Of a stretch of 64,000 bases of DNA, positions 2,869 to 29,897 are shown one piece after another. Both the position numbers and the translations under genes were made by a program. The notes under the pieces are model-generated. The model saw only the letters and a program-made list of their open reading frames with translations, was not told where the DNA came from and ran no database searches. How positions within the stretch are numbered: position 1 is the first letter of the stretch; the number at the start of each line of letters is the position of its first letter. The stretch is from Phenylobacterium sp. (GTDB lineage Bacteria; Pseudomonadota; Alphaproteobacteria; Caulobacterales; Caulobacteraceae), in contig NZ_JAUSCJ010000040.1 of assembly GCF_030651185.1 (NCBI RefSeq), positions 1 to 64,000 of the forward strand, given 5' to 3'.

Positions 2869-4278
2869 ATGGCCAATGAACGTCGCCTCTATGTCGGCCC
2901 CAGCCTGCGCCGCCTGCGCCGGGACCTGGGCCTGACCCAGGCCGACATGGCCCGCGACCTGGAGGTCTCGGCCTCCTACGTCGCCCTGCTGGAGCGCAAC
3001 CACCGGCCGCTCTCGGCCGAGATGCTGCTGCGGCTGGCCCAGACCTACAAGCTGGACATGTCGACCCTGGCCGGGAGCGGCGGCGCCGACGAGACCGCGC
3101 GGCTGCAGGCGGTGCTGAAGGATCCGATGTTCGCCGACATCGACCTGCCGGCCCTGGAGACCTCCGACCTCACAGGCAACTTCCCCGGCATCACCGAGGC
3201 GCTGCTGCGGCTCTACACGACCTATCGCGAGGAGCAGCTGGCCCTGGCCGACCGGGGCGCCGAGACCCATGAGGCGGGCGGGGAGGGGGCCGACGCCACC
3301 GATCCGGTGGCCGAGTCCCGCCGTTTCCTGGCCGCGCGGCGCAACAGCTTCCCGAGCCTGGACGACGCCGCCGAGCGCATCGCCCAGGGTGTGGCGGGGC
3401 ACGACAACCTGGTGGGCTACCTGAAGGCGCGGCACGGCCTGAAGGTGCGGCGGCTGCCGTCGCCGGTGATGGTGGGCTCGATCCGGCGGCTGGACTGGCA
3501 CCGAAAGGAAATCCTGCTGGACGACGGTCTGGATACCGCCAGCCAGATGTTCCAGCTGGCTTTGCAACTGGCCTATCTGGAGATGCGCGAGGAGGTGGAC
3601 GCGGTCCTGGCCGAGGGGACCTTCGCCACCGAGAGCGGCGAGCGCCTGACCCGGCGCGCCCTGGCCAGCTATGCGGCGGCGGCGGTGATCATGCCCTATT
3701 CGGCCTTCGCCCGGGCGGTGGAGGCGCGGCATTACGACGTCGAGGCCCTGGCCCGGCAGTTCGGCGCCAGCTTCGAGCAGACCGCCCACCGGCTGACCAC
3801 CCTGCAGAAGCCGGGGCAGGAGCGGGTCCCGTTCTTCTTCATCCGGGTCGATCCGGCCGGCAACGTGTCGAAGCGCCTGGACGGGGCGGGCTTCCCCTTC
3901 GCCCGGCATGGCGGCGGCTGTCCGCTGTGGTCGGTGCACCAGGTGTTCAAGACGCCGCGGGAGATCGTCACCCAGTGGCTGGAGCTGCCGGACGGCCAGA
4001 GGTTCTTCTCCATCGCCCGCACGGTGACCGCGGGCGGCGGCTCCTTCGGCAGCCCGCGGGTGGAGCGGGCCATCGCGCTGGGCTGCGCGGCCGAACACGC
4101 CGGCAAGCTGGTCTATACCCAGGACCAGCCGGCGCAGGCCGCGACCCCCATCGGGGTGACCTGCCGGCTGTGCCACCGGACCGAATGCACGGCCCGCTCG
4201 GCGCCCCCGATCGGCCGCCAGATCCTGCCCGACGACATCCGCCGCACCAGCCTGCCGTTCGGCTTCTCAGACAGCTGA
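2869..4278 (+). CDS. ScfR/RamB-like XRE regulator of short-chain acyl metabolism
   Basis: A 469-residue regulator. An N-terminal Cro/C1-type helix-turn-helix spans about residues 8-62, with [20 protein letters not shown] as the HTH. An IrrE/ImmA-like central region follows (about 150-290). The C-terminal domain (DUF2083 type) carries the Cys-rich CRLCHRTEC motif typical of short-chain fatty-acyl-responsive regulators. Family members control isocitrate lyase, malate synthase or propionate genes and sense acyl-CoA-type ligands. Its place between aceA (divergent) and malate synthase G (downstream, same strand) supports control of the glyoxylate shunt. AAGGGG precedes the ATG at 2869. The direction of control (activator or repressor) cannot be decided. 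Confidence 0.9.
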
Positions 4279-4408: not shown

Positions 4409-6553
4409 ATGGACATCAGCCCCGCCCTGACCGTCGACGACATCCTGCACGCCTTCGTGGAGCAGGAACTGCTCACCGGGACCGGGGTAGACGCCGCCAA
4501 GTTCTGGGGCGCGCTGGAATCGATCCTGGCCGACTTCACGCCGCGCAACGCCGAGCTGTTGGCGCGCCGAGACGCCTTGCAGGATCAGATCGACGCTTGG
4601 TGGAAGGCGCGCAAGGGCAAGGATTTCAGCGTCGCCGAGGAGATCGCCTTCCTGCGCGAGATCGGCTACCTGCTGCCCGAACCCGCCCCCTTCGAGATCA
4701 GCACGCTCAACGTCGATCCGGAGATCGCCAAGGTCGCCGGGCCGCAGCTTGTGGTGCCAGTTTCGAATGGCCGGTTTGCGCTCAACGCCGCCAACGCCCG
4801 CTGGGGCAGCCTCTATGACGCCCTCTACGGCACCGACGCCCTGGAGCCGCCGACCGGGACCAAGGGCTATGACCCAGTTCGCGGAGCCAAGGTTGTCGCC
4901 TTCGCGCGCGGCCTGCTGGACCGCGTCGCGCCCCTGGCCAAGGGCTCGCATTCCGACGCTACGAGCTATGTGGTGACCGACAAGGCCCTGGTGGTCAGCC
5001 TGAAGGATGGCGCCACCACCGGCCTGAAGGACGCCGCCCAATTCGCCGGCTGGCGTGGGACTGCCGAGGCGCCGCAGGGCGTGCTGCTGGCCCACAACAG
5101 CCTGCACCTGGAAATCCAGATCGACCGCAGCCACAACATCGGCAAGGACGACGCCGCGGGCGTCTCCGACGTGCTGGTGGAGGCCGCGCTCACCGCTATC
5201 CAGGACTGCGAGGACTCCGTCGCCGCCGTGGACGCCGAGGACAAGGCCCAGGTCTACCGCAACTGGCTGGGCCTGATGCGCGGCGACCTGTCGGCCAGCT
5301 TCCAGAAGGGCGGCCAGACTGAGACGCGCCGCCTCGACGTCGACCGCATCTATTCCAGCGCCAAGGGCGGGGAGCTGACCCTGCGGGGCCGCAGCCTGAT
5401 GCTGGTGCGCAATGTCGGCCACCACATGCTCACCGACATGGTGCGCCTGAACGGCCAGCCGGTGTTCGAGACCGTGGTGGACGCGCTGATCACCGTCACC
5501 GCCGCCCTGCACGACCTGAAGGGTAAGCGGCTCAACAGCCCGGCGGGCTCGGTCTATGTGGTGAAGCCCAAGATGCACGGGCCCGACGAGGTGGCGCTCG
5601 CCGTCCGACTGTTCGACCTGGTGGAGGACGCGCTCGGCCTGGACCGCAACACCGTCAAGCTGGGCATCATGGACGAGGAGCGCCGCACCAGCGCCAATCT
5701 GGCCGCCTGCATCCACGCCGCCCGCGAGCGCATCGTCTTCATCAACACCGGCTTCCTCGACCGCACTGGCGACGAGATCCACACCGCCATGGAAGCCGGC
5801 CCCGTGGTCCGCAAGGACGCCATCAAGGCCGAGCCCTGGCTGCCGGCCTATGAGAAGCGCAATGTCGAGATCGGCCTGGCCACCGGCTTCCCCGGCAAGG
5901 CCCAGATCGGCAAGGGCATGTGGGCCGCGCCGGATCAAATGCAAAACATGTTGGCTGCCAAGGTCGGCCATCCCAAGGCCGGCGCCAACACCGCCTGGGT
6001 GCCGTCGCCCACCGCCGCGGTGCTGCACGCCCTGCACTATCACGAGGTGGATGTGCCCGGCCTGCAGGCCACGATGAGCGCCGCCAAGTCGGTCACCGGC
6101 CTGGACGACCTGCTGACCCCGCCCCTGGCGCGCTCCAACTGGAACGCCGAGGACATCACCCAGGAGCTGGACAACAACGCTCAGGGCATCCTCGGCTATG
6201 TGGTTCGCTGGATCGACCAGGGCGTCGGCTGCTCCAAGGTGCCCGACATCCACGATGTCGGCCTGATGGAGGACCGCGCCACCCTGCGGATCTCCAGCCA
6301 GCACATCGCCAACTGGCTGCACCACGGCGTCTGCACCGAGGTCCAGGTCCGCGAGACCTTCGCCCGCATGGCCAAGGTGGTGGACGCCCAGAACGCCGGC
6401 GACGCCCTCTACCAGCCGATGGCGGGCAATCCCGACAGCGTGGCCTATCAGGCGGCGCTGGAGCTGGTGTTCGAGGGTCGGGCCCAGCCCAACGGCTACA
6501 CCGAGCACATCCTGTCGCGCCGCCGCCGTGAGCGTAAGGCGCAGTTGGCCTAA
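4409..6553 (+). CDS. glcB: Malate synthase G
   Basis: A 714-residue monomeric-type malate synthase, close to the usual 720-730. It condenses glyoxylate with acetyl-CoA to malate, completing the glyoxylate shunt begun by the nearby isocitrate lyase. Segments such as [15 protein letters not shown] and [14 protein letters not shown] are characteristic of the TIM-barrel active site of isoform G. The ATG at 4409 ([11 protein letters not shown]) was chosen over an in-frame upstream start because the extra 22 residues are unlike the family. It is 130 bases downstream of the ScfR-like gene and may be co-transcribed or have its own promoter. Confidence 0.96.
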
Positions 6554-6560
6554 CCCACCT

Positions 6561-6592
6561 CCGCTCATCCCCGCGGAAGCGGGGATGAGCGG
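6561..6592. terminator. Bidirectional terminator-like palindrome between convergent genes
   Basis: A perfect 14-bp inverted repeat with a GGAA loop (arms 6561-6574 and 6579-6592) fills the gap between convergent malate synthase and the APH-fold kinase. The core TCATCCCCGC/GCGGGGATGA is of the kind dispersed in alphaproteobacterial intergenic regions. There is no long T-tract, so termination is inferred from stem strength and position. Confidence 0.6.
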
Positions 6593-6594
6593 GG

Positions 6595-7491
6595 TTATGT
6601 GTGCTCGCTCACCAGATCCCCAATGATCGCGCGGCTCCTGGCCATCTCCTCATCGCTCGACCCCGGCAGTCCGGCCGCCACGATCAGCGCCTTCCAGATC
6701 GTCCAGCCGCGCCCGCGCGCCCAGGTCCCATTATCCAGCGGCAACGCCTCGCGGAACGCGGCGCGGGCCTGCCCGTGCAGCAGCGTCCAGGCGATGGCCA
6801 GATCGCAGGCGGGATCGCCGACGCCGAGGATGCCGAAGTCGATGACGGCGCTGAGCTTGCCGTCCCTGACCAGCAAGTTCCCCGCCGCCACATCGCCGTG
6901 CAGCCAGACCGGCGGGTTGTTCCATTCGGCCGCCAGGGCCTGTTCCCAGATCTCCAGGGCCGCCGCGCCGTCGATGCTGTCGCCCAGGTCGTCGATCGCC
7001 TTGCGGGTCTGCTCGTCATAGGTGGCCAGGGGGCCGCCACGGAAGAAGTTGTGCTGGCCCGCGGCCGGGCCGTCGGTCACGTCGGTGGACTGCAGCACCT
7101 TCAGGAACCCCGCCAGGTCGCGGGCGAACTGGCGCAGGTCGCCGATGCGGTCCAGGGCGGCGGTCTCTCCCTCGATCCAGCGATAGACCGACCAGGGCCA
7201 AGGATAGCCTTCGCCAGGTTCACCCAGACCGACAGGCTCGGGGATCGGCAGAGGCAGGTGGGGGGCGAGCCTGGGCAGCCAAGCCTGCTCCTTCTCCACC
7301 TGGGCCACATAGGCGCGCGCGCTGGGCAGGCGCACCGACATTTCGTCGCCGAGGTGGAAGGTGGTGTTGTTCTTGCCGCCGAAGACCACGGGGCGGACGG
7401 GCAGGTGGGCCCATTGCGGAAACTGGGCGGCCACCAGGCGGCCGACGAGGTCGGCGTCGAAGGCGATGCGTTTGGTCTTGGTCTCGGTCAT
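6595..7491 (-). CDS. Aminoglycoside phosphotransferase (APH)-fold kinase
   Basis: A 298-residue member of the APH/choline kinase superfamily. The catalytic loop WLHGDVAAGNLLV (Brenner motif, HGDxxxxN) is followed by the metal-binding IDFGILGVGDPACDLA. The N-terminal VFGGKNNTTFHLGDEMSVRLP is the nucleotide-binding lobe. This subgroup (YcbJ/macrolide-kinase-like) phosphorylates small hydroxylated molecules; some members give antibiotic resistance, others act on metabolites. Nothing nearby points to a substrate. Isolated gene, convergent with malate synthase G. Confidence 0.85.
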   Translation of the reverse strand: MTETKTKRIAFDADLVGRLVAAQFPQWAHLPVRPVVFGGKNNTTFHLGDEMSVRLPSARAYVAQVEKEQAWLPRLAPHLPLPIPEPVGLGEPGEGYPWPWSVYRWIEGETAALDRIGDLRQFARDLAGFLKVLQSTDVTDGPAAGQHNFFRGGPLATYDEQTRKAIDDLGDSIDGAAALEIWEQALAAEWNNPPVWLHGDVAAGNLLVRDGKLSAVIDFGILGVGDPACDLAIAWTLLHGQARAAFREALPLDNGTWARGRGWTIWKALIVAAGLPGSSDEEMARSRAIIGDLVSEHT

Positions 7492-22823: not shown

Positions 22824-23630
22824 TTGCCTGAGATCATCCTGATCGACGATCCCGCCGACCCGCGTGTCGGCGCATATCGCGATGTGCGGGAGCGCGACCT
22901 GGTGGGCCGTGAGGGTCTGTTCGTGGCCGAGGGCGAGGTGGTGCTCAACGTGCTTGCGCGCTCGACCCTGTGCGAGCCGGTCTCCCTGATGATCGCCCGC
23001 AAGCGGGTGGCGGGCCTGGCCCATCTGATCGCCCAGATGCCGCGGGATGTGCCGGTCTATTCGGCCAACCAGGAGGCGATGGACGCGGTGGTGGGCTTCC
23101 ACATCCACCGCGGCATCCTGGCCCTGGGACGCCGCCGCGCCTCGCCCGTCGCCGCCGACCTGCTGGCGGGCCTGGGGGAGGGGGCGTTGGTGCTGGCGCT
23201 GTCGGGGATCGCCAACCACGACAACATGGGCGGCCTGTTCCGCAACGCCGCCGCCTTCGGGGTCGATGCGGTGCTGCTGGACACCGACTGCTGTGACCCG
23301 CTCTACCGCAAGGCTATCCGGGTCTCGGTGGGCGCGGTGCTGGTGACCCCCTGCGCGACCGCGCAGGGAGACCTGCTGGACACCCTGGGCGCGGCCGGCT
23401 TCGAGACCGTGGCGCTGAGCCCCAAGGGGACGACGCGCCTCATGGACCTCAAGCGTCCGTCAAAGACCGCCGTGCTGCTGGGGGCCGAGGGGCCGGGCCT
23501 GGCGGCGTCGGTGCTGGCGCGTACGACAACGGTGGCCATTCCCATGGCCACCGGCTTTGACTCTCTCAACGTGGCGACGACCGGGGGAATCGTCCTGCAC
23601 CACCTGGCCTTCGCGGCCGGGAGGGATTAG
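22824..23630 (+). CDS. TrmH/SpoU-family RNA 2'-O-methyltransferase
   Basis: A 268-residue SPOUT methyltransferase. An N-terminal substrate-recognition domain with GLFVAEGEVVLNVL precedes the catalytic knot. The three SpoU motifs are visible: LSGIANHDNMGGLFRNAAAF (motif 1, Asn/Arg), VLLGAEGPGL (motif 2) and IPMATGFDSLNVATTGGIVL (motif 3). It methylates a ribose in rRNA or tRNA with SAM; the exact nucleotide cannot be named. The start is TTG at 22824; no in-frame ATG or GTG would keep the N-terminal domain. It overlaps the convergent XRE gene by 4 bases. Confidence 0.88.
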   Translation: MPEIILIDDPADPRVGAYRDVRERDLVGREGLFVAEGEVVLNVLARSTLCEPVSLMIARKRVAGLAHLIAQMPRDVPVYSANQEAMDAVVGFHIHRGILALGRRRASPVAADLLAGLGEGALVLALSGIANHDNMGGLFRNAAAFGVDAVLLDTDCCDPLYRKAIRVSVGAVLVTPCATAQGDLLDTLGAAGFETVALSPKGTTRLMDLKRPSKTAVLLGAEGPGLAASVLARTTTVAIPMATGFDSLNVATTGGIVLHHLAFAAGRD

Positions 23631-24037
23631 CGCGCTCGCTTCGGGGCGGGCTCTTCGGTCTCTTCGATCAGCGACCGAGTCAGGTTGAGGATCGCCGTGC
23701 GCAGCGAGGGCTGCTGCACGCTGGCGAAGGCCTCCAGGAGTTGGACGGCGCCCGGCACGGCCAGTTTCTCGAACAGGCTCTCGTCACCGGTGGGGCGGTC
23801 GTTCTCCCCCACCAGTTCACCGACTGTGGTCTCCAGCTTCTCGGCGATGCGCACCAGCATGGAGGCCGAGGTGCGGTTGGCGCCGCGCTCGTACTTCTGG
23901 ACCTGCTGGAAGCTGACGCCCAGGTGGTCGGCCAGGGTGGATTGGGAGATGCCCAGCCATTTGCGACGCACGCGAATGCGGTGGCCGACAGCGACGTCGA
24001 TGGGGTCGGGCCCCGCGTCGTCAATATTCTCGCTCAC
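23627..24037 (-). CDS. XRE-family helix-turn-helix regulator
   Basis: A 136-residue cytoplasmic regulator. The HTH occupies about residues 17-70 (GHRIRVRRKWLGISQSTLAD, then FQQVQKYERGANRTSASML). A C-terminal helix, VQLLEAFASVQQPSLRTAIL, probably dimerises. This compact architecture is very common in alphaproteobacteria. The GTG at 24037 was chosen because AAAAGGA lies about 7 bases upstream, while the frame's upstream part (to 24112) is basic and unlike the family. A TTGCA-CGC-TGCAA palindrome at 24154-24166 may be its own operator. Target genes unknown. Confidence 0.88.
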   Translation of the reverse strand: MSENIDDAGPDPIDVAVGHRIRVRRKWLGISQSTLADHLGVSFQQVQKYERGANRTSASMLVRIAEKLETTVGELVGENDRPTGDESLFEKLAVPGAVQLLEAFASVQQPSLRTAILNLTRSLIEETEEPAPKRAR

Positions 24038-24153
24038 GGATATGTCCTTTTGGCGCGCACGCTCCAGTACGCAGCGCCTTTTCTGCACGCGTAAAAGCCG
24101 TATCGCCACCAATTTGTCCGACCTAAGACATAGAGCCGCACTGCAGGGTTAAA

Positions 24154-24166
24154 TTGCACGCTGCAA
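24154..24166. promoter_or_regulatory. Short palindrome upstream of the XRE gene
   Basis: TTGCA-CGC-TGCAA is a perfect 5-bp inverted repeat, about 120 bases before the XRE start codon, in a locally AT-richer stretch. A related CTGCA occurs at 24141. It is a candidate autoregulatory operator; only symmetry and position support it. Confidence 0.35.
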
Positions 24167-24279
24167 GGGTTTTTGAGCGCCGCTAACCGTCCGATCCGTA
24201 TCTCGCCACACGAAACATCCCCACTTTGGGTTCTCTGCGCAAGAACGATCTAAGCGTGTATCACAATCTCAGATTGCGG

Positions 24280-24531
24280 TCAGGCGTCCGGTGTGCGCCC
24301 TTCAAGGATGCCATGGATCTGATCGAGGACCGCGATGGCGACCTCCTCGCCCTCCGTCTCCGAGATTTCGGCGGCGCGGCGAACGATCACCGACAGGGTC
24401 GCCATGTCCCTGGGACTGAGCAGGCTGGCCATCTCCAGGAGTTCGGCGGTCTGGTCGTCGAGGTCCATGTCTGACGGATGCCGTTGCGGCGCGACGGGCC
24501 GGGAGCTGTGCGGGATCTTGAAGTCGGTCAT
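24280..24531 (-). CDS. Small acidic protein of unknown function, last gene of a four-gene operon
   Basis: An 83-residue protein, mostly helical (DDQTAELLEMASLLSPRDMA, then LSVIVRRAAEISETEGEEVA). I do not recognise a domain. Its ATG overlaps the stop of the isochorismatase-fold gene as ATGA at 24528-24531, so it is translationally coupled to the operon. The acidic, amphipathic helices suggest a small partner or regulatory subunit, but that is a guess. Confidence 0.65.
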   Translation of the reverse strand: MTDFKIPHSSRPVAPQRHPSDMDLDDQTAELLEMASLLSPRDMATLSVIVRRAAEISETEGEEVAIAVLDQIHGILEGRTPDA

Positions 24532-25052
24532 GGCATGTTCGCCGCGGCGAACCGCGAGGCGTCCTCGAAGAATAGCTCACGGGAAGTGGTCACGCGCGCC
24601 CTGGGGGCGAGGGCGGCCAGCGGCTTGAGCAGGATCTGACGGTTGGCCGGATCGCCCCCGACAGCCTCGTCCACCACCTCGACGGCCAGGTTCCGATCGG
24701 CGGCGGCGAAGGCGGTGGCGAGCACGGTGTCGGCCAGGCGGAAGCCGATCAGAACGAGCGGCCCGCCCAGACTCTGAGCCGTCTGGCTGAAGGCGGCGTT
24801 GGTGAAGGCCGAGGGGCCATGACGGATGAACACCGCTTCACTGGGCAGGGGCTCCAGGCCCGGGATCGGGCGGCCCAGCGGGTCTGCGTCCAGCCGGGCG
24901 TGGACGTGCAGCACGGGCCAGCGGCGTCGCCGGGCCTGTTCCAGCACCCTGCGGCAGGCCGCGACCGTGGCGGCCGCGTTCTCGGTGGCCAGGCGTTCGC
25001 GCTGCAGGTCCAGGCAGATCAGGGCTGAAGCGTCGGGGGCGTACTCTCTCAC
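24528..25052 (-). CDS. Isochorismatase-fold protein lacking the catalytic Cys (probable pseudoenzyme)
   Basis: A 174-residue protein of the cysteine-hydrolase fold. ALICLDLQRERLA keeps the first catalytic Asp (D-x-Q). The family pattern around the nucleophile (TDxCVxxTAxxA) reads GFRLADTVLATAFAAADRN, with Thr where Cys should be. The Lys usually found before SAF is Arg/His (FIRHGPSAFTNAAF). So two of the three catalytic residues appear lost. Known members hydrolyse isochorismate or amides; this one is more likely a binding protein or has new chemistry. The start is GTG, overlapping the upstream GNAT stop (GTGA at 25049-25052). Confidence 0.8.
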   Translation of the reverse strand: MREYAPDASALICLDLQRERLATENAAATVAACRRVLEQARRRRWPVLHVHARLDADPLGRPIPGLEPLPSEAVFIRHGPSAFTNAAFSQTAQSLGGPLVLIGFRLADTVLATAFAAADRNLAVEVVDEAVGGDPANRQILLKPLAALAPRARVTTSRELFFEDASRFAAANMP

Positions 25053-25681
25053 CGGGGCGCTCCGCCGGGATTGCGGGCGGTGCGCGCCGCGGACTTGTCC
25101 AGCACGCCCGGCTCGGTCCAGGCGCCTTCGGGGCGCAGCAGTTCATAGGGATCTGAGTCGAGGGTCAGGGCGTCGTGGGGCGGCACGCCCTCCACCACCA
25201 TCTCCACATAGTCGTGGTCGGAGACCACGAAGCCGTCGCGACGCGGCCGGACATGTGCGTTGAAATACTGTTCCCAGAAGTGGATCAGGCGGACCTGTCC
25301 GTAGCCGAGGATCTGCCGGTAGTTCTTCTTCTCGGCGAGCTTCTTGGCGGCCAGGATCAGCATCAGGGTGGCGCGGCCGCGGCGGAACTCCTTGCGCACC
25401 GCCACCCGCTCCACCTTGGCGAAGTCGGCGAACCAGCGGATGCGCAGGGTTCCGATCGGCTCCCCGTCGCGGCGCAGGATCAGGTGGGTGGCGCCTGCGA
25501 AGTCGTTGCCATCGTACTCCTCGTCATAGGGGCAGGCTTGCTCGCCCATATAGACCAAGGTGCGGACCGCCATGGCCTGCATGATGTCGGGAAGGGTGCG
25601 GCAGACCACGACCTCCAACTGGCCCTCGTCGACCGCCGCGGCGGGACGGGCCTCCAAGGGCATGCGGACATTGGCGTTCAT
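25049..25681 (-). CDS. GNAT-fold acyltransferase
   Basis: A 210-residue protein. The N-terminal VVVCRTLPDIMQAMAVRTLV and MGEQACPYDEEYDGNDF segments, and the core EPIGTLRIRWFADFAKVERV then VRKEFRRGRATLMLILAAKK, give the GNAT beta4-alpha3 region with an R-R-G-R-A acetyl-CoA loop. YFNAHVRPRRDGFVVSDHDY is the C-terminal strand region. The long N-terminal half resembles acyl-homoserine-lactone-synthase-like GNATs as well as ordinary acetyltransferases. Its ATG overlaps the upstream gene's stop (ATGA at 25681). Donor and acceptor unknown. Confidence 0.8.
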   Translation of the reverse strand: MNANVRMPLEARPAAAVDEGQLEVVVCRTLPDIMQAMAVRTLVYMGEQACPYDEEYDGNDFAGATHLILRRDGEPIGTLRIRWFADFAKVERVAVRKEFRRGRATLMLILAAKKLAEKKNYRQILGYGQVRLIHFWEQYFNAHVRPRRDGFVVSDHDYVEMVVEGVPPHDALTLDSDPYELLRPEGAWTEPGVLDKSAARTARNPGGAPR

Positions 25682-26250
25682 CAGGCGACCTTCCGTTGGA
25701 CGGGCCAGGTGGGGCAGACGACGAGACCGCCGGGGCCCGGCACGGGCTGGGCGCCCATGCGGCGCAGCAGGGTGCGTTCGCCCCCCGGCGTGGCGGCGCG
25801 GCCATAGAGGGGGACGGTGTCGTAGATCTCGCGGTGGATGGCCAAGGCGGCGGCCATCACCACCGCGCGGCCGCGCCAGGTGGTCCCCGCCATGCCCCAG
25901 CCATAGACCGCGATGACCCGCTCGTGAGGGCGAGCGGCCATCTCCAGGGGCGGGGCGACGCCGTCGAGCACGCCAGCCGCCAGGGACGGGGCGGCGGCCC
26001 GGGTGAGGGGGATGATGCAGAGCACCCCCGCCAGTCCGCCGTCGACGCCACGATAGGCGAAGGCCGAGCACCGGGTGCGATCCTGGACCGCCTGAAGGGT
26101 TTCCACGGTGGCCACGGCGGGGCCGACGGTTCGGGATGCGATATCACGGCCCTGAACAATCTCATCCTGCGTCGCCAGCGTCAGGCCCAGTCGCGCAAGG
26201 TGTTCGCGGGGCCGTCTCGTGTAATCGGCGGCGTTCTGCATCTTGCTCAC
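25681..26250 (-). CDS. Unknown protein, possibly a diverged GNAT fold; first gene of the operon
   Basis: A 189-residue protein with no confident family. VIAVYGWGMAGTTWRGRAVV resembles a GNAT motif A, with W-R-G-R-A at the pyrophosphate-loop position. LYGRAATPGGERTLLRRMGA resembles the C-terminal F-x-R-A-x-T-x-x-G-x-R-x-x-x-R-x-G element of acyltransferases. It therefore looks like a second, divergent GNAT paired with the next gene. The start used is GTG at 26250; an ATG three codons in (26241) is equally possible and neither has a strong ribosome-binding site. A 19-bp palindrome abuts the start. Confidence 0.65.
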   Translation of the reverse strand: MSKMQNAADYTRRPREHLARLGLTLATQDEIVQGRDIASRTVGPAVATVETLQAVQDRTRCSAFAYRGVDGGLAGVLCIIPLTRAAAPSLAAGVLDGVAPPLEMAARPHERVIAVYGWGMAGTTWRGRAVVMAAALAIHREIYDTVPLYGRAATPGGERTLLRRMGAQPVPGPGGLVVCPTWPVQRKVA

Positions 26251-26269
26251 CCGACTTGTGCGAAGTCGG
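26251..26269. promoter_or_regulatory. Candidate LysR operator between the operon and its divergent regulator
   Basis: CCGACTT-GTGCG-AAGTCGG is a perfect palindrome with 7-bp arms lying in the 95-base gap between the leftward operon and the rightward LysR gene. LysR proteins usually bind interrupted dyads in exactly such divergent gaps, with T-N11-A symmetry. Binding is inferred. Confidence 0.55.
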
Positions 26270-26345
26270 CTTTTGATAGAGCGTCAAATCATCTGCGTGC
26301 AGCCGCCAAGTTCGTATGGGGGCGCCACGATACGGGTTGGGCAGG

Positions 26346-27323
26346 ATGGACAATCACGACGGCGGCCGCGCCGACTGGGACGACATCAAGACCTTCGTGG
26401 CCGCGGCCCAGGCCGGCAGCTTCGGCGCCGCCGCGCGTCGCCTGCGCACCAGTCAGCCGACCATCACCCGGCGCATCGATGACCTGGAGACCCGGCTGGG
26501 CGTGCGCCTGTTCGACCGCGGCCTGCGCGGCGTCAGCCTGACCCGGGCCGGCGAGCGCATCTATGATCGGGCGCTGTCGATGCACCGGGCCTCCGTCGAT
26601 ATCGAGCGCATGGCCCTGGAGGCCGACCGGCATGACAGCGGTGAGGTGACCATCGCCGCGCCGGAGGGGATCGGCGGCTTCCTGGTGGGGGTGAAGCTCG
26701 CGGATTTCATGAAGGAAAACCCCGGCATCCGCCTTGCCCTCGATTGCGGCTTCTATCCTGAGAACCCAGTGGACGGTCACGTCGACCTGTCGATCCAGAT
26801 GACTTCGCCCGGGGGGCAGCCGGATGTGGCGGCCACGGAGTTGGCGACCCTGCACTACGCCCTGTTCGCCTCGCAGGACTACATCGATACGTATGGGGCC
26901 CCCACGCGCCTGGAGTCCGCGGTCGGCCATCGTTTCATCGCCCACTCCGCCCAGGTCAGCGAGAAGGGCCAGTGGCACGCCAGGACCGGCGCCTTCATGG
27001 AGTTGGCCGCGCCGTCCCTGGTGGTGAACTCCTCAACCGCCATGCTCCACGCCATCGAGCGCGGGGCCGGGATCGGGCCGGTGCCCACCGCCATCCTGCG
27101 CCTGACCTCGAACCTGGTGATGCTGGATATCCCGCCCCTGGCCAGCGGGACCCTGTGGCTCTGCCACCATCGTGACGCGCTGAAGTCGCCGCGCGTCGCC
27201 CGTGTCGCCGAATGGCTCGTCTCGATCTTCGACGCCCGCGAGCGGCCCTGGTACCGCAAGGAGTTCATCCACCCCTCCGAGTTCGACGGCTGGTCCTGGC
27301 CGGCGGCCAGCGCGAGGGCCTAA
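26346..27323 (+). CDS. LysR-family transcriptional regulator
   Basis: A 325-residue LysR. The winged HTH is at about residues 10-68 (FVAAAQAGSFGAAARRLRTS, QPTITRRIDDLETRLGVRLF). The effector domain follows, with the inverted periplasmic-binding-like fold. The ATG at 26346 (MDNHDGGRADWDD) gives the usual spacing to the HTH; the earlier in-frame start adds an atypical tail. It probably controls the divergent four-gene operon at 24280-26250 and itself. The ligand is unknown. Confidence 0.92.
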   Translation: MDNHDGGRADWDDIKTFVAAAQAGSFGAAARRLRTSQPTITRRIDDLETRLGVRLFDRGLRGVSLTRAGERIYDRALSMHRASVDIERMALEADRHDSGEVTIAAPEGIGGFLVGVKLADFMKENPGIRLALDCGFYPENPVDGHVDLSIQMTSPGGQPDVAATELATLHYALFASQDYIDTYGAPTRLESAVGHRFIAHSAQVSEKGQWHARTGAFMELAAPSLVVNSSTAMLHAIERGAGIGPVPTAILRLTSNLVMLDIPPLASGTLWLCHHRDALKSPRVARVAEWLVSIFDARERPWYRKEFIHPSEFDGWSWPAASARA

Positions 27324-27449: not shown

Positions 27450-29897
27450 ATGTCAGGGATCAATTTGCCGGATTCCACCGCCGATTCCGAAGATGGGCGC
27501 CCGTTTGAGCTCGACCTGAGCCAGGACGTCTGTGACCGCGCCACCCGTCTGGCCCGCACCCTGTTTGGCTCCGTGGTGGCGCAGGTGGTTTTGGTCAAGG
27601 GTGGTCGGGCCTGGCGCAGCCGGGAGCCAGATCAGGACCACCCGGTTGCGGCGAGCGTGAAGTGGGTCCTGGACAACGGTGAACTGCTCTGGGTCGAGGA
27701 CGGACGGCGCGACCCTCGCGTGTCCTCCATGGCCAGCGTCGCCGGACCGCCATATCTCCGCTTCTATGCCGCCGCGCCCATTCGCCTCCCCGACGGCGCT
27801 GTGCCGGGTGTGATCTGCGTCACGGGACCGGAGGTGCGCGCCTACGACGCCAGCCTGGCCGGGCGCCTCACGGATCTCGCCGCCTTCGTCGCCGATGAGT
27901 GGGATCGGGCCCAGGCTACCAAGGCTCGCGAGCGCGGCCGCCGCGAGCGCGCGGCGATCATGGGAGCGTTCGCCGGCGTCGTCCGGGCCATGCCGGTCTC
28001 CCTGGTGATCACCGACAAGGCGCTCAACGTGGTGGGCTGCAGCCCGCGCTGGGCCGAGGAGGTGGGCTTGACCGTCCTCGAGGCGACGGGCCGTCCCATG
28101 ATGGAGCTTCGCCCGGCGGTGTTCGAACGCTGGCGCGAATTCTACGAGCGCGTGCTGGCCGGCGAGACCATCGCATCCGACCGCGTGCCCTATCGCGATG
28201 ACAAGGGCGCCGTGCGCTGGATCTCGGTGGAGATGGCGCCCTGGCGCAATGCCGACGGCGAGGTCGGCGGCCTGATCATCGCCAGCCACGACATCAGCCG
28301 CATGGTCGAGGCCCTGGAGGCCACCGAGCGTTCGGAACAGCGCCTGACCCTGGCCATGGAAATCGCCGACATCCATGTCTACGAAGTAGACTACCAGCGG
28401 CGTGAACTGATCAAGGCCGGCGCCGAGGACACCTTCTTCACCGAGCCGAAGACCTACGAAGAGCTCTATCGCGACATCTACGCCACCATAGACCCGCGCG
28501 ATCGCCCCGGCGTCGAGGCGGCCTGGCAGCTTCATGTGGACGATGGGACGCCCTATCGTCCCGAGTACCGGGTCATCCGCGCCGACGACAAGGAGATCTG
28601 GACCTCCGGGGCCTGCCGCCTGGTGAACGACCGCGAGGGTCGGCCGATCCGGCTGATCGGGGCGATGCAGAATATCACCGAGCGCAAGGCCGCCGAGCGC
28701 GCCCTGCTGCAGGCCAAGGAAGACGCCGAGACCGCCAACCGGGCCAAGTCCACCTTCCTGGCCACCATGAGCCACGAGATTCGCACCCCGCTGAACGGCG
28801 TCCTGGGCATGGCCCAGGCCATGGCCGCCGATGATCTCAGTCCGCTGCAACGCGACCGCCTGGACGTGGTGCGTCAGTCGGGCGAGACCCTGCTGCACAT
28901 TCTCAATGATGTGCTCGATCTCTCCAAGATCGAGGCCGGCAAGCTGGAGCTGGAAGAGGCCGAGTTCGACATCAGCGAGCTGGCGCGCGGGGCGCACGCC
29001 GCCTTCACCGCCATCGCCAACAAGAAGGGCCTGTCCTTCGACCTGGCCGTCGAGGCCGAGGCCCGCGGGGTCTATGTGGGGGACTCAACCCGCGTTCGGC
29101 AGATCCTCTACAATCTGGTCTCCAACGCGCTGAAGTTCACCGAGAGCGGCGAGGTGCGGGTCTGTGTCGCGCGCAGCGGCGACGGCCTGTGCCTGACCGT
29201 GGCCGACACCGGGATCGGCATTCCGCCCGAGCGGCTGGCCAGCCTGTTCCAGAAGTTCGAGCAGGCCGACGCCTCCACCACCCGGCGCTACGGCGGGACG
29301 GGCCTCGGCCTGGCCATCTGCCGCGAGCTCGCCCAGCTGATGGGCGGCGCGATCCGGGCCGAGAGCGAGCCCGGCAAGGGCTCCACCTTCTCCGTCACCC
29401 TGCCGCTCGCCAAGAGCGCGGCCACCCACGTCCTGCCCGCGCCGGACGCCGGCGTGGTGGCGGCCATCGAGATGGAGGTCGGCGCCCTGCGCGTGCTGGC
29501 CGCCGAGGACAACACCGTCAATCAGCTGGTGCTCAAGACCCTGCTGCACCAGATCGGCGTCGATCCGGTGATCGTGGCGAACGGCGCACTGGCCGTCGAG
29601 GCCTGGGCGCGGGAGGACTGGGACGTCATCCTGATGGACGTCCAGATGCCCGAGATGGATGGTCCCACCGCGACGGGCATCATCCGCGCGCGCGAGGCCG
29701 CCGAGGGCAGGGCGCGCACCCCGATCATCGCGCTCACCGCCAACGCCATGGCCCACCAGGTGGCCGAATACACCGACGCCGGCATGGACGGCTTCGTCGC
29801 CAAGCCCATCGAGGTCGGGCGCCTGTTCGCGGCGCTTCAGGCGGTGCTGGAGGTTCCGGCTGAGGCCGAGAACGGCGAGGCTTCGGTGGCGGCCTAG
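27450..29897 (+). CDS. Soluble hybrid histidine kinase: GAF-PAS-PAS-HisKA-HATPase-REC
   Basis: An 815-residue cytoplasmic sensor kinase without membrane segments. A GAF-like domain (about 20-155) is followed by two PAS domains (about 175-290 and 295-425). HisKA has the phosphorylated His442 in [17 protein letters not shown]. The ATPase has N-box [13 protein letters not shown]1 DTGIGIP and G2 [13 protein letters not shown]. The receiver domain carries Asp730 in [12 protein letters not shown]. It autophosphorylates and passes phosphate to its own receiver, then presumably to an Hpt protein. GGGGGG lies 5 bases before the ATG. The stop codon sits in a palindromic repeat. Signal unknown; soluble GAF/PAS inputs suggest redox, light or a small ligand. 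Confidence 0.94.

Follow-up and report, generated by a model that had tools for sequence, protein, structure and literature searches.

A LysR-linked operon encoding two GNAT-fold proteins and a predicted isochorismatase-like pseudoenzyme in Phenylobacterium

The window analyzed here is the whole 64,000-nucleotide stretch (positions 1 to 64,000 of contig NZ_JAUSCJ010000040.1) from the 4.1 Mb genome of a Phenylobacterium species. Its minus strand encodes, from 26250 down to 24280, four consecutive genes which we term, in this order, gnatA, gnatB, isoch and small (Table 1). The four open reading frames (ORFs), as well as the divergent LysR gene, were recovered where an initial annotation of this DNA, made from the sequence alone, had placed them. 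The start of gnatA is probably the ATG, because its close homologs are usually 186 residues long. All three junctions had been described as 4-bp start/stop overlaps, which is true of gnatB/isoch (GTGA, 25049-25052) and isoch/small (ATGA, 24528-24531), whereas gnatA and gnatB share 1 bp only (TGATG at 25681). The further claim that such overlaps point to products needed in a fixed ratio is weakened, since an overlap is no proof of this and one of the three amounts to a single base pair.

Table 1. Genes and sequence features in and around the gnatA-small operon (window coordinates)
Feature	Coordinates	Strand	Remarks
gnatA, divergent GNAT-fold protein	25681..26250	-	189 aa from GTG 26250 or, likelier, 186 aa from ATG 26241; translation, AlphaFold2 model and fold matches
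gnatB, GNAT, 210 aa	25049..25681	-	PF00583; nearest solved structures SACOL1063 (5jq4, 5jph), 1q2y, PA0115, ElaA
isoch, predicted isochorismatase-fold pseudoenzyme, 174 aa	24528..25052	-	Asp15 retained, Arg77 for Lys, Thr109 for Cys
small, 83-aa protein, no family match	24280..24531	-	restricted to the unit in the genus sample
LysR-type regulator, divergent, cassette member	26316..27323	+	profile match; gone with the four genes in L216
XRE-type helix-turn-helix gene (HTH_3), downstream neighbor outside the cassette	23627..24037	-	orthologue in 5 cassette-free genomes
PAS-type hybrid histidine kinase (label by eye), LysR side	27450..29897		adjoins LysR in 10/11 close loci tested
Candidate LysR site, conserved intergenic element TTGATAGAGCGTCAA (minus strand TTGACGCTCTATCAA)	26273..26287		CGCTCTA(C/T)CAA in 18/22 close loci, TTG-N9-CAA in 10/22
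19-bp palindrome	26251..26269		7-bp arms; in relatives little beyond the core CTTGTGCGAAG (26255-26265) recurs

The four families were searched for in 100 Phenylobacterium genomes, and the resulting counts are lower bounds, with only part of the first-look candidates scored in many genomes (e.g. 8 of 70, 54 of 106). The gnatA gene was found in 27 of these genomes, with isoch adjoining in every case; isoch was detected in the same 27 and, as weak matches only, in four more. In the one of these four that was read (G013) the gene, L092, is solitary. The small gene was detected in 22 genomes, every time beside isoch within the unit, and is not present in five distant Phenylobacterium loci. The order gnatA-gnatB-isoch is seen at all 27 unit loci of the genus that were read, the window included, and LysR is divergent from it at 26 of them, the remaining locus (L088) ending at a contig edge. 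The families are hence co-localized across the genus rather than scattered. At the finer level, all 22 close loci preserve the 4-bp overlap of isoch with small, and 21 of them that of gnatB with isoch; gene starts at these loci were chosen by script as those nearest to the expected start, with four of the isoch starts set to the 4-bp overlap on re-reading. Within the genus most gnatA/gnatB overlaps are 1 bp long, and those of L089, L090 and the distant loci are 4 bp. The grouping of these genes as an operon is real and goes beyond chance. Some unit loci are cut, and both the gnatA of L072 (around 3108-3776) and the LysR gene of L085 (5894-6910) are broken into two or more ORFs, where decay and assembly error look alike. 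A weak gnatA-like match in G024 (L093; E 2.6e-4, interrupted by stop codons) was taken as chance, there being no unit genes around it.

The surroundings of the operon delimit a larger entity. In 10 of the 11 close loci tested (L073 is the exception) the order is a SpoU-like gene, the XRE gene, small-isoch-gnatB-gnatA, the divergent LysR gene and then the PAS-type histidine kinase; the SpoU, M13 peptidase and histidine kinase labels of neighboring genes were assigned by eye, without a profile scan. One genome, G021, offers the corresponding empty site (L216:4172-7388): here the SpoU-like gene, the XRE gene and the histidine kinase lie together without the five genes, the matches to XRE and to the kinase being 257 bases apart. 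Genome-wide searches of G021 with isoch and gnatA gave no match. Given that the flanks are present without the five genes, LysR and the four-gene operon behave as one cassette. Weaker evidence comes from G003, G006, G014 and G093, in which the XRE orthologue adjoins the SpoU-like gene and neither isoch nor gnatA gives a match; G003 is cut by a contig end on the side of the cassette, and the other flank in these genomes differs. The XRE gene itself was rejected as a member of the cassette for the close clade, as its orthologue (>230 bits) occurs in 22 genomes with the cassette and in five without it; it nevertheless adjoins the unit in four of the five distant Phenylobacterium loci, so some link is possible. 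A role in anti-phage defence was likewise rejected, PADLOC giving no match for the five cassette proteins and only helix-turn-helix-level matches for the XRE protein.

The isoch protein matches the isochorismatase profile PF00857 with 59.2 bits against a cut-off of 27 (E 7.4e-16), and its relatives retrieved by searching are from Phenylobacterium in five of six cases, the sixth being an unclassified alphaproteobacterium. Against solved sequences at E up to 0.01 it has three matches, of which PDB 4H17, an isochorismatase-family hydrolase, is the best (E 4.3e-11) and CrcA is another (E 0.0014). To place the catalytic Asp, Lys and Cys we used the 4h17 alignment and the solitary L092 copy, in an alignment of 44 sequences comprising 43 unit-linked copies (that of the window included) and L092, which was counted apart. 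The reading of the window protein as an isochorismatase fold with Thr in place of Cys and without Lys is borne out, the three positions being occupied by Asp15, Arg77 and Thr109. The complete Asp-Lys-Cys set is present in L092 and in none of the 43 unit-linked copies; two of the latter (L166 and L170) have the Cys without the Asp. Among the 22 close copies the nucleophile position is Thr in 10, Ser in eight and Ala in four, and the Lys position is Arg throughout. Across the 27 copies of the genus Asp15 is kept in all, no Cys is seen at the nucleophile position, and the Lys position is Arg in 26; in four distant copies it is His or Cys. Ratios of nonsynonymous to synonymous rates (dN/dS) against five relatives range from 0.10 to 0.43 for isoch, the maximum coming from the most distant pair, and from 0.12 to 0.41 for small.

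EntB, PhzD and isoch all share one fold. Loss of the Cys by itself is no proof of inactivity in this fold: the accessible part of the report on CrcA describes PhzD as an isochorismatase with Gly for Cys and CrcA as having Ser for Cys, with the Lys kept in both (PMC10213629). The initial description of isoch as broken therefore stands insofar as the triad is incomplete in 43 of 43 unit-linked copies, and is tempered insofar as a missing Cys alone is not unusual. The window protein resembles PhzD in fold and in its missing Cys; however, it departs from the PhzD pattern, in which Asp and Lys are kept and the Cys alone is replaced, in having Arg where PhzD has Lys. It likewise differs from 4H17, which has Ser at the nucleophile position and a Lys in the alignment. 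The replacement of both Lys and Cys, along with the Thr/Ser/Ala variation, argues for isoch being a pseudoenzyme, and one that is conserved, since it is still under purifying selection.

The uniformly retained Asp15 and the precedent of Gly for Cys in PhzD could also be accommodated by an ordinary detoxification or catabolic operon, with gnatB as a normal amino acid or amine acetyltransferase and isoch as an enzyme using a Cys-free mechanism, as PhzD does. SACOL1063, the nearest solved relative of gnatB, is said, in the part of the source available to us, to acetylate threonine (PMC10267138), and transporter genes lie near gnatB at some distant loci (L166, L168, L205, L206). We nonetheless consider such an operon unlikely, though far from negligible: the Lys position has changed to Arg almost throughout the genus and to His or Cys in the four distant copies, the nucleophile position switches between Thr, Ser and Ala even between close relatives, and the block absent at L216 contains no transporter or catabolic gene.

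The gnatA of the window matched nothing in Pfam or NCBIfam, none of 28 gnatA homologs gave a Pfam GNAT match at E up to 0.1, and a PDB sequence search returned three chance-like matches only. Despite this, an AlphaFold2 model computed from six sequences (predicted local distance difference test, pLDDT, of 82.4) shows a GNAT fold. The single match of this model in Foldseek at E up to 0.001 is a GNAT (2qec), and the best match in VIA-align, with a Z of 12.6 and a root-mean-square deviation of 2.9 over 137 residues, is Naa10 (4kvm_E), tied with many other GNATs. Hence, what had been put forward as a possible divergent GNAT has, on the evidence of the model, a GNAT fold, and the model does not tell which kind of GNAT it is. 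Beyond Phenylobacterium gnatA is rare, being detected in four of 385 genomes of the class, each time along with gnatB, and in seven of 299 genomes of the phylum, where the six loci read besides the window all have an adjoining gnatB. In fact gnatB stands beside gnatA at every gnatA locus read, and in another alphaproteobacterium (L162:3699-4940) the two are fused in one protein of 408 residues, which suggests that the separate gnatA and gnatB work as a pair. The gene next after this fusion (5007-6749) encodes an AMP-binding enzyme.

The gnatB protein, called a clear GNAT from the outset, indeed matches PF00583 (29.6 bits against a cut-off of 20.7, E 9.1e-7), and its profile recovers seven solved structures at E up to 1, including 5jq4 (E 1.1e-12), 5jph, 1q2y, 1xeb and 5z6n; its match to NCBIfam PRK10314 is weak and under the cut-off. 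While the profile thereby links gnatB to the SACOL1063/1q2y/ElaA group of GNATs, gnatB is longer and differs from them in a conserved C-terminal stretch (LRPEGAW...GVLD) and an irregular coenzyme A (CoA) loop. GNATs usually have a CoA pyrophosphate loop of the form [QR]xxGx[GA]. This pattern is lacking from the window gnatB, which has EFRRGRAT at the position, and from 67 of the 71 gnatB sequences compared, rows under 60 bits having been left out of both this count and the tree discussed below. The irregular loop makes the use of acetyl-CoA uncertain, and the assignment to the GNATs is based on the Pfam match and not on the loop. No clean link between the irregular loop and the presence of gnatA was obtained, as the usual pattern occurs in two of 43 sequences with gnatA and two of 28 without it.

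These loops, together with the absence of the usual one from gnatA as judged by eye, the incomplete isoch triad and the frequency of LysR as a companion, would fit a non-catalytic sensor, in which the two GNAT folds, like the isochorismatase fold, act as pseudoenzymes that bind ligands and signal the level of acyl-CoA or of an acyl-metabolite to LysR. Working GNATs that fall outside the CoA-loop consensus do exist, however, the LuxI-type synthases being an example, and the strong conservation of the GNAT core in gnatB is equally expected of an active enzyme; we regard such a sensor as improbable. Similarly improbable, in our assessment, is its fuller form, an all-pseudoenzyme complex. Here the two GNAT folds, isoch and small would together bind an acyl metabolite and relay its level to a LysR dedicated to this task; the complex would have grown step by step from an ancient LysR-GNAT pair of the alphaproteobacteria and would be acquired or lost as a single block.

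The adjacency of a regulator to a GNAT gene, a weak similarity of gnatB to Acetyltransf_5 (E 0.14, under the cut-off) and the presence of TofI among the structural matches of gnatA also bring to mind a synthase of signals like the acyl-homoserine lactones. This seems very improbable: in the fold comparison, made with gnatA, TofI does not stand out from the other GNATs matched, gnatB has no autoinducer-synthase match in Pfam, and no LuxI-type structure is found among its seven solved matches at E up to 1.

The gnatB family reaches far beyond the operon, with members in 38 of 385 genomes of the class and 29 of 299 genomes of the family. Of ten loci read in further genera of the family (L152-L161), nine have LysR, and L158 is cut; of 30 loci outside the family (L162-L191), at least 13 have a LysR divergent either from gnatB or from the gene immediately preceding gnatB. 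For two distant gnatB-linked LysRs that were tested the window LysR is the best match in the genome of the window, narrowly for the first (161 against 149 bits) and clearly for the second (106 against 77). The association with LysR thus holds over deep distances, in keeping with the proposal of a regulated unit with its own LysR. What is weakened is the idea of a fixed four-gene set, given that gnatB, often with LysR, lacks gnatA, isoch and small in many alphaproteobacteria. On a gnatB tree of 71 rows the presence of gnatA requires four changes, against a mean of 22.2 for shuffled labels; one of the apparent absences of gnatA (L158) is a contig end, and this tree is a guide only, as several deep branches are open or long. 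The distribution points to LysR-gnatB as the widespread old core, to which gnatA, isoch and small are probably add-ons. As such, LysR-gnatB is a recurrent and apparently undescribed alphaproteobacterial pair, whose accessory proteins seem to vary by lineage: a cytidylyltransferase-like membrane protein, a second GNAT or the pseudo-isochorismatase. Of these, the membrane protein and a second gnatB are found in alphaproteobacteria that lack gnatA. The membrane protein stands beside gnatB at L166:4658-5956 and L170:4713-6119, its C-terminal domain being the cytidylyltransferase-like one (PF01467 in L166, by eye in L170), and both loci also carry an isoch relative. At L173-L175 two tandem genes of the gnatB family are found near a LysR gene, the second of which could fill the role of gnatA.

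At its simplest, this distribution would mean that LysR and gnatB are the sole functional pair, with gnatA, isoch and small as passengers that are only loosely retained. Consistent with this, gnatB occurs without the other three (isoch being ignored in this count) at 26 of the 40 loci scored across the class and the family (L152-L191), one of the 26, L158, being cut where gnatA would lie, and its dN is below that of the three other operon genes in four of five comparisons (dN/dS 0.11-0.15); LysR is more conserved than gnatB in most comparisons. The dN/dS values of gnatA from the pairs L078/L080 and L089/L090 were excluded as artefacts of wrong starts. We give the passenger explanation little probability, for isoch and small are under purifying selection, their overlap is kept at every close locus and that of gnatB and isoch at all but one, and gnatA has gnatB beside it at every gnatA locus read, once as a fusion.

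We tentatively favor a five-gene cassette in which LysR controls a divergent two-GNAT acylation operon with a non-catalytic partner, a reading that is possible and falls somewhat short of an even chance. LysR would control the divergent gnatA-gnatB-isoch-small operon; gnatA and gnatB would form a heterodimer, with a small acyl metabolite being acylated, or bound, by gnatB; through binding to the product or to the GNAT pair, the pseudo-isochorismatase and the 83-residue protein might exert a tuning effect of the kind proposed for CrcA on Crc; and the neighboring LysR may have the product or its precursor as effector, in the manner of OatA and the CysB regulon. Beyond the co-inheritance, triad loss, gnatA fold and gnatA-gnatB fusion seen in the sequences or the model, we infer the chemistry, the formation of a complex and the feedback, and the CrcA and OatA precedents make these steps reasonable.

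CrcA (PA1677, PDB 8CIB) of P. aeruginosa is an isochorismatase-fold protein proposed to titrate Crc by binding it, and it shares with isoch the fold and the replaced nucleophile Cys; it differs in its retained Lys, the sequence match between the two is weak, and the accessible part of its description mentions no GNAT partners (PMC10213629). For the Salmonella GNAT OatA, the part of the source available to us reports that over-expression raises the regulon of the LysR-type regulator CysB (PMC6277577). The likeness lies in a GNAT affecting the regulon of a LysR-type regulator, and the difference in that OatA is a single GNAT, as opposed to the two of the unit. To our knowledge the OatA-CysB case involves no isochorismatase partner and no gene adjacency.

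Several observations weigh against the acylation cassette. The CoA loop of gnatB is irregular in nearly all members, and the structure model of this protein, with a pLDDT of only 32.5, is unusable for a fold search. A comparison of gnatA and gnatB by hhalign finds no relation (probability 1.3%). At several gnatA-gnatB loci (L161, L162, L163, L202) there is no isoch or small, which implies that these two are not essential to the core, and the distant Phenylobacterium loci do not preserve the overlap of gnatB with isoch, the gaps between the two being +32, +5, +35, -4 and -11. The empty site is known from one genome only. Finally, the OatA report states that CysB binding in vitro was unaffected by the product of OatA (PMC6277577).

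No description of such an operon was found in open-licence papers, in agreement with the earlier statement that no described pathway has this composition; all the folds are known and the arrangement is new. The unit appears to provide a clear example of a bacterial pseudoenzyme that is conserved and has fixed partners, and gnatA-gnatB would be a GNAT pair, fused in another lineage, for which the adjacent LysR offers a direct readout.

Regarding control of the operon, attention had been drawn to the 19-bp palindrome between gnatA and LysR. It does exist, but its arms are not conserved: among 22 close intergenic regions 7-bp arms are seen only in the window, with arms of at most 5 bp in the others, and the 64-kb window holds 19 perfect 7-5-7 palindromes. 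We therefore rejected it as an operator. A terminator scan flags it on the plus strand, with one hit found against 0.8 expected by chance, and a scan for sigma-70-type promoters across 24000-26400 found none, none being expected. The neighboring CGCTCTA(C/T)CAA element is the better candidate for a regulatory site, judging from its recurrence in related intergenic regions.

Turning to the remaining gene, small yielded no family match above chance level in 21 homologs, and hhalign found no relation between it and the XRE protein (probability 0.3%). In another family of the same order an ORF at the same place (L203:3205-3558) looks small-like by eye. A plasmid search with gnatB gave five records, all under 60% identity, of which three were read; on an Aureimonas plasmid (L204:6784-9586) a LysR gene is followed by a divergent gnatB with two small hypothetical proteins and then by a helix-turn-helix gene on the opposite strand.

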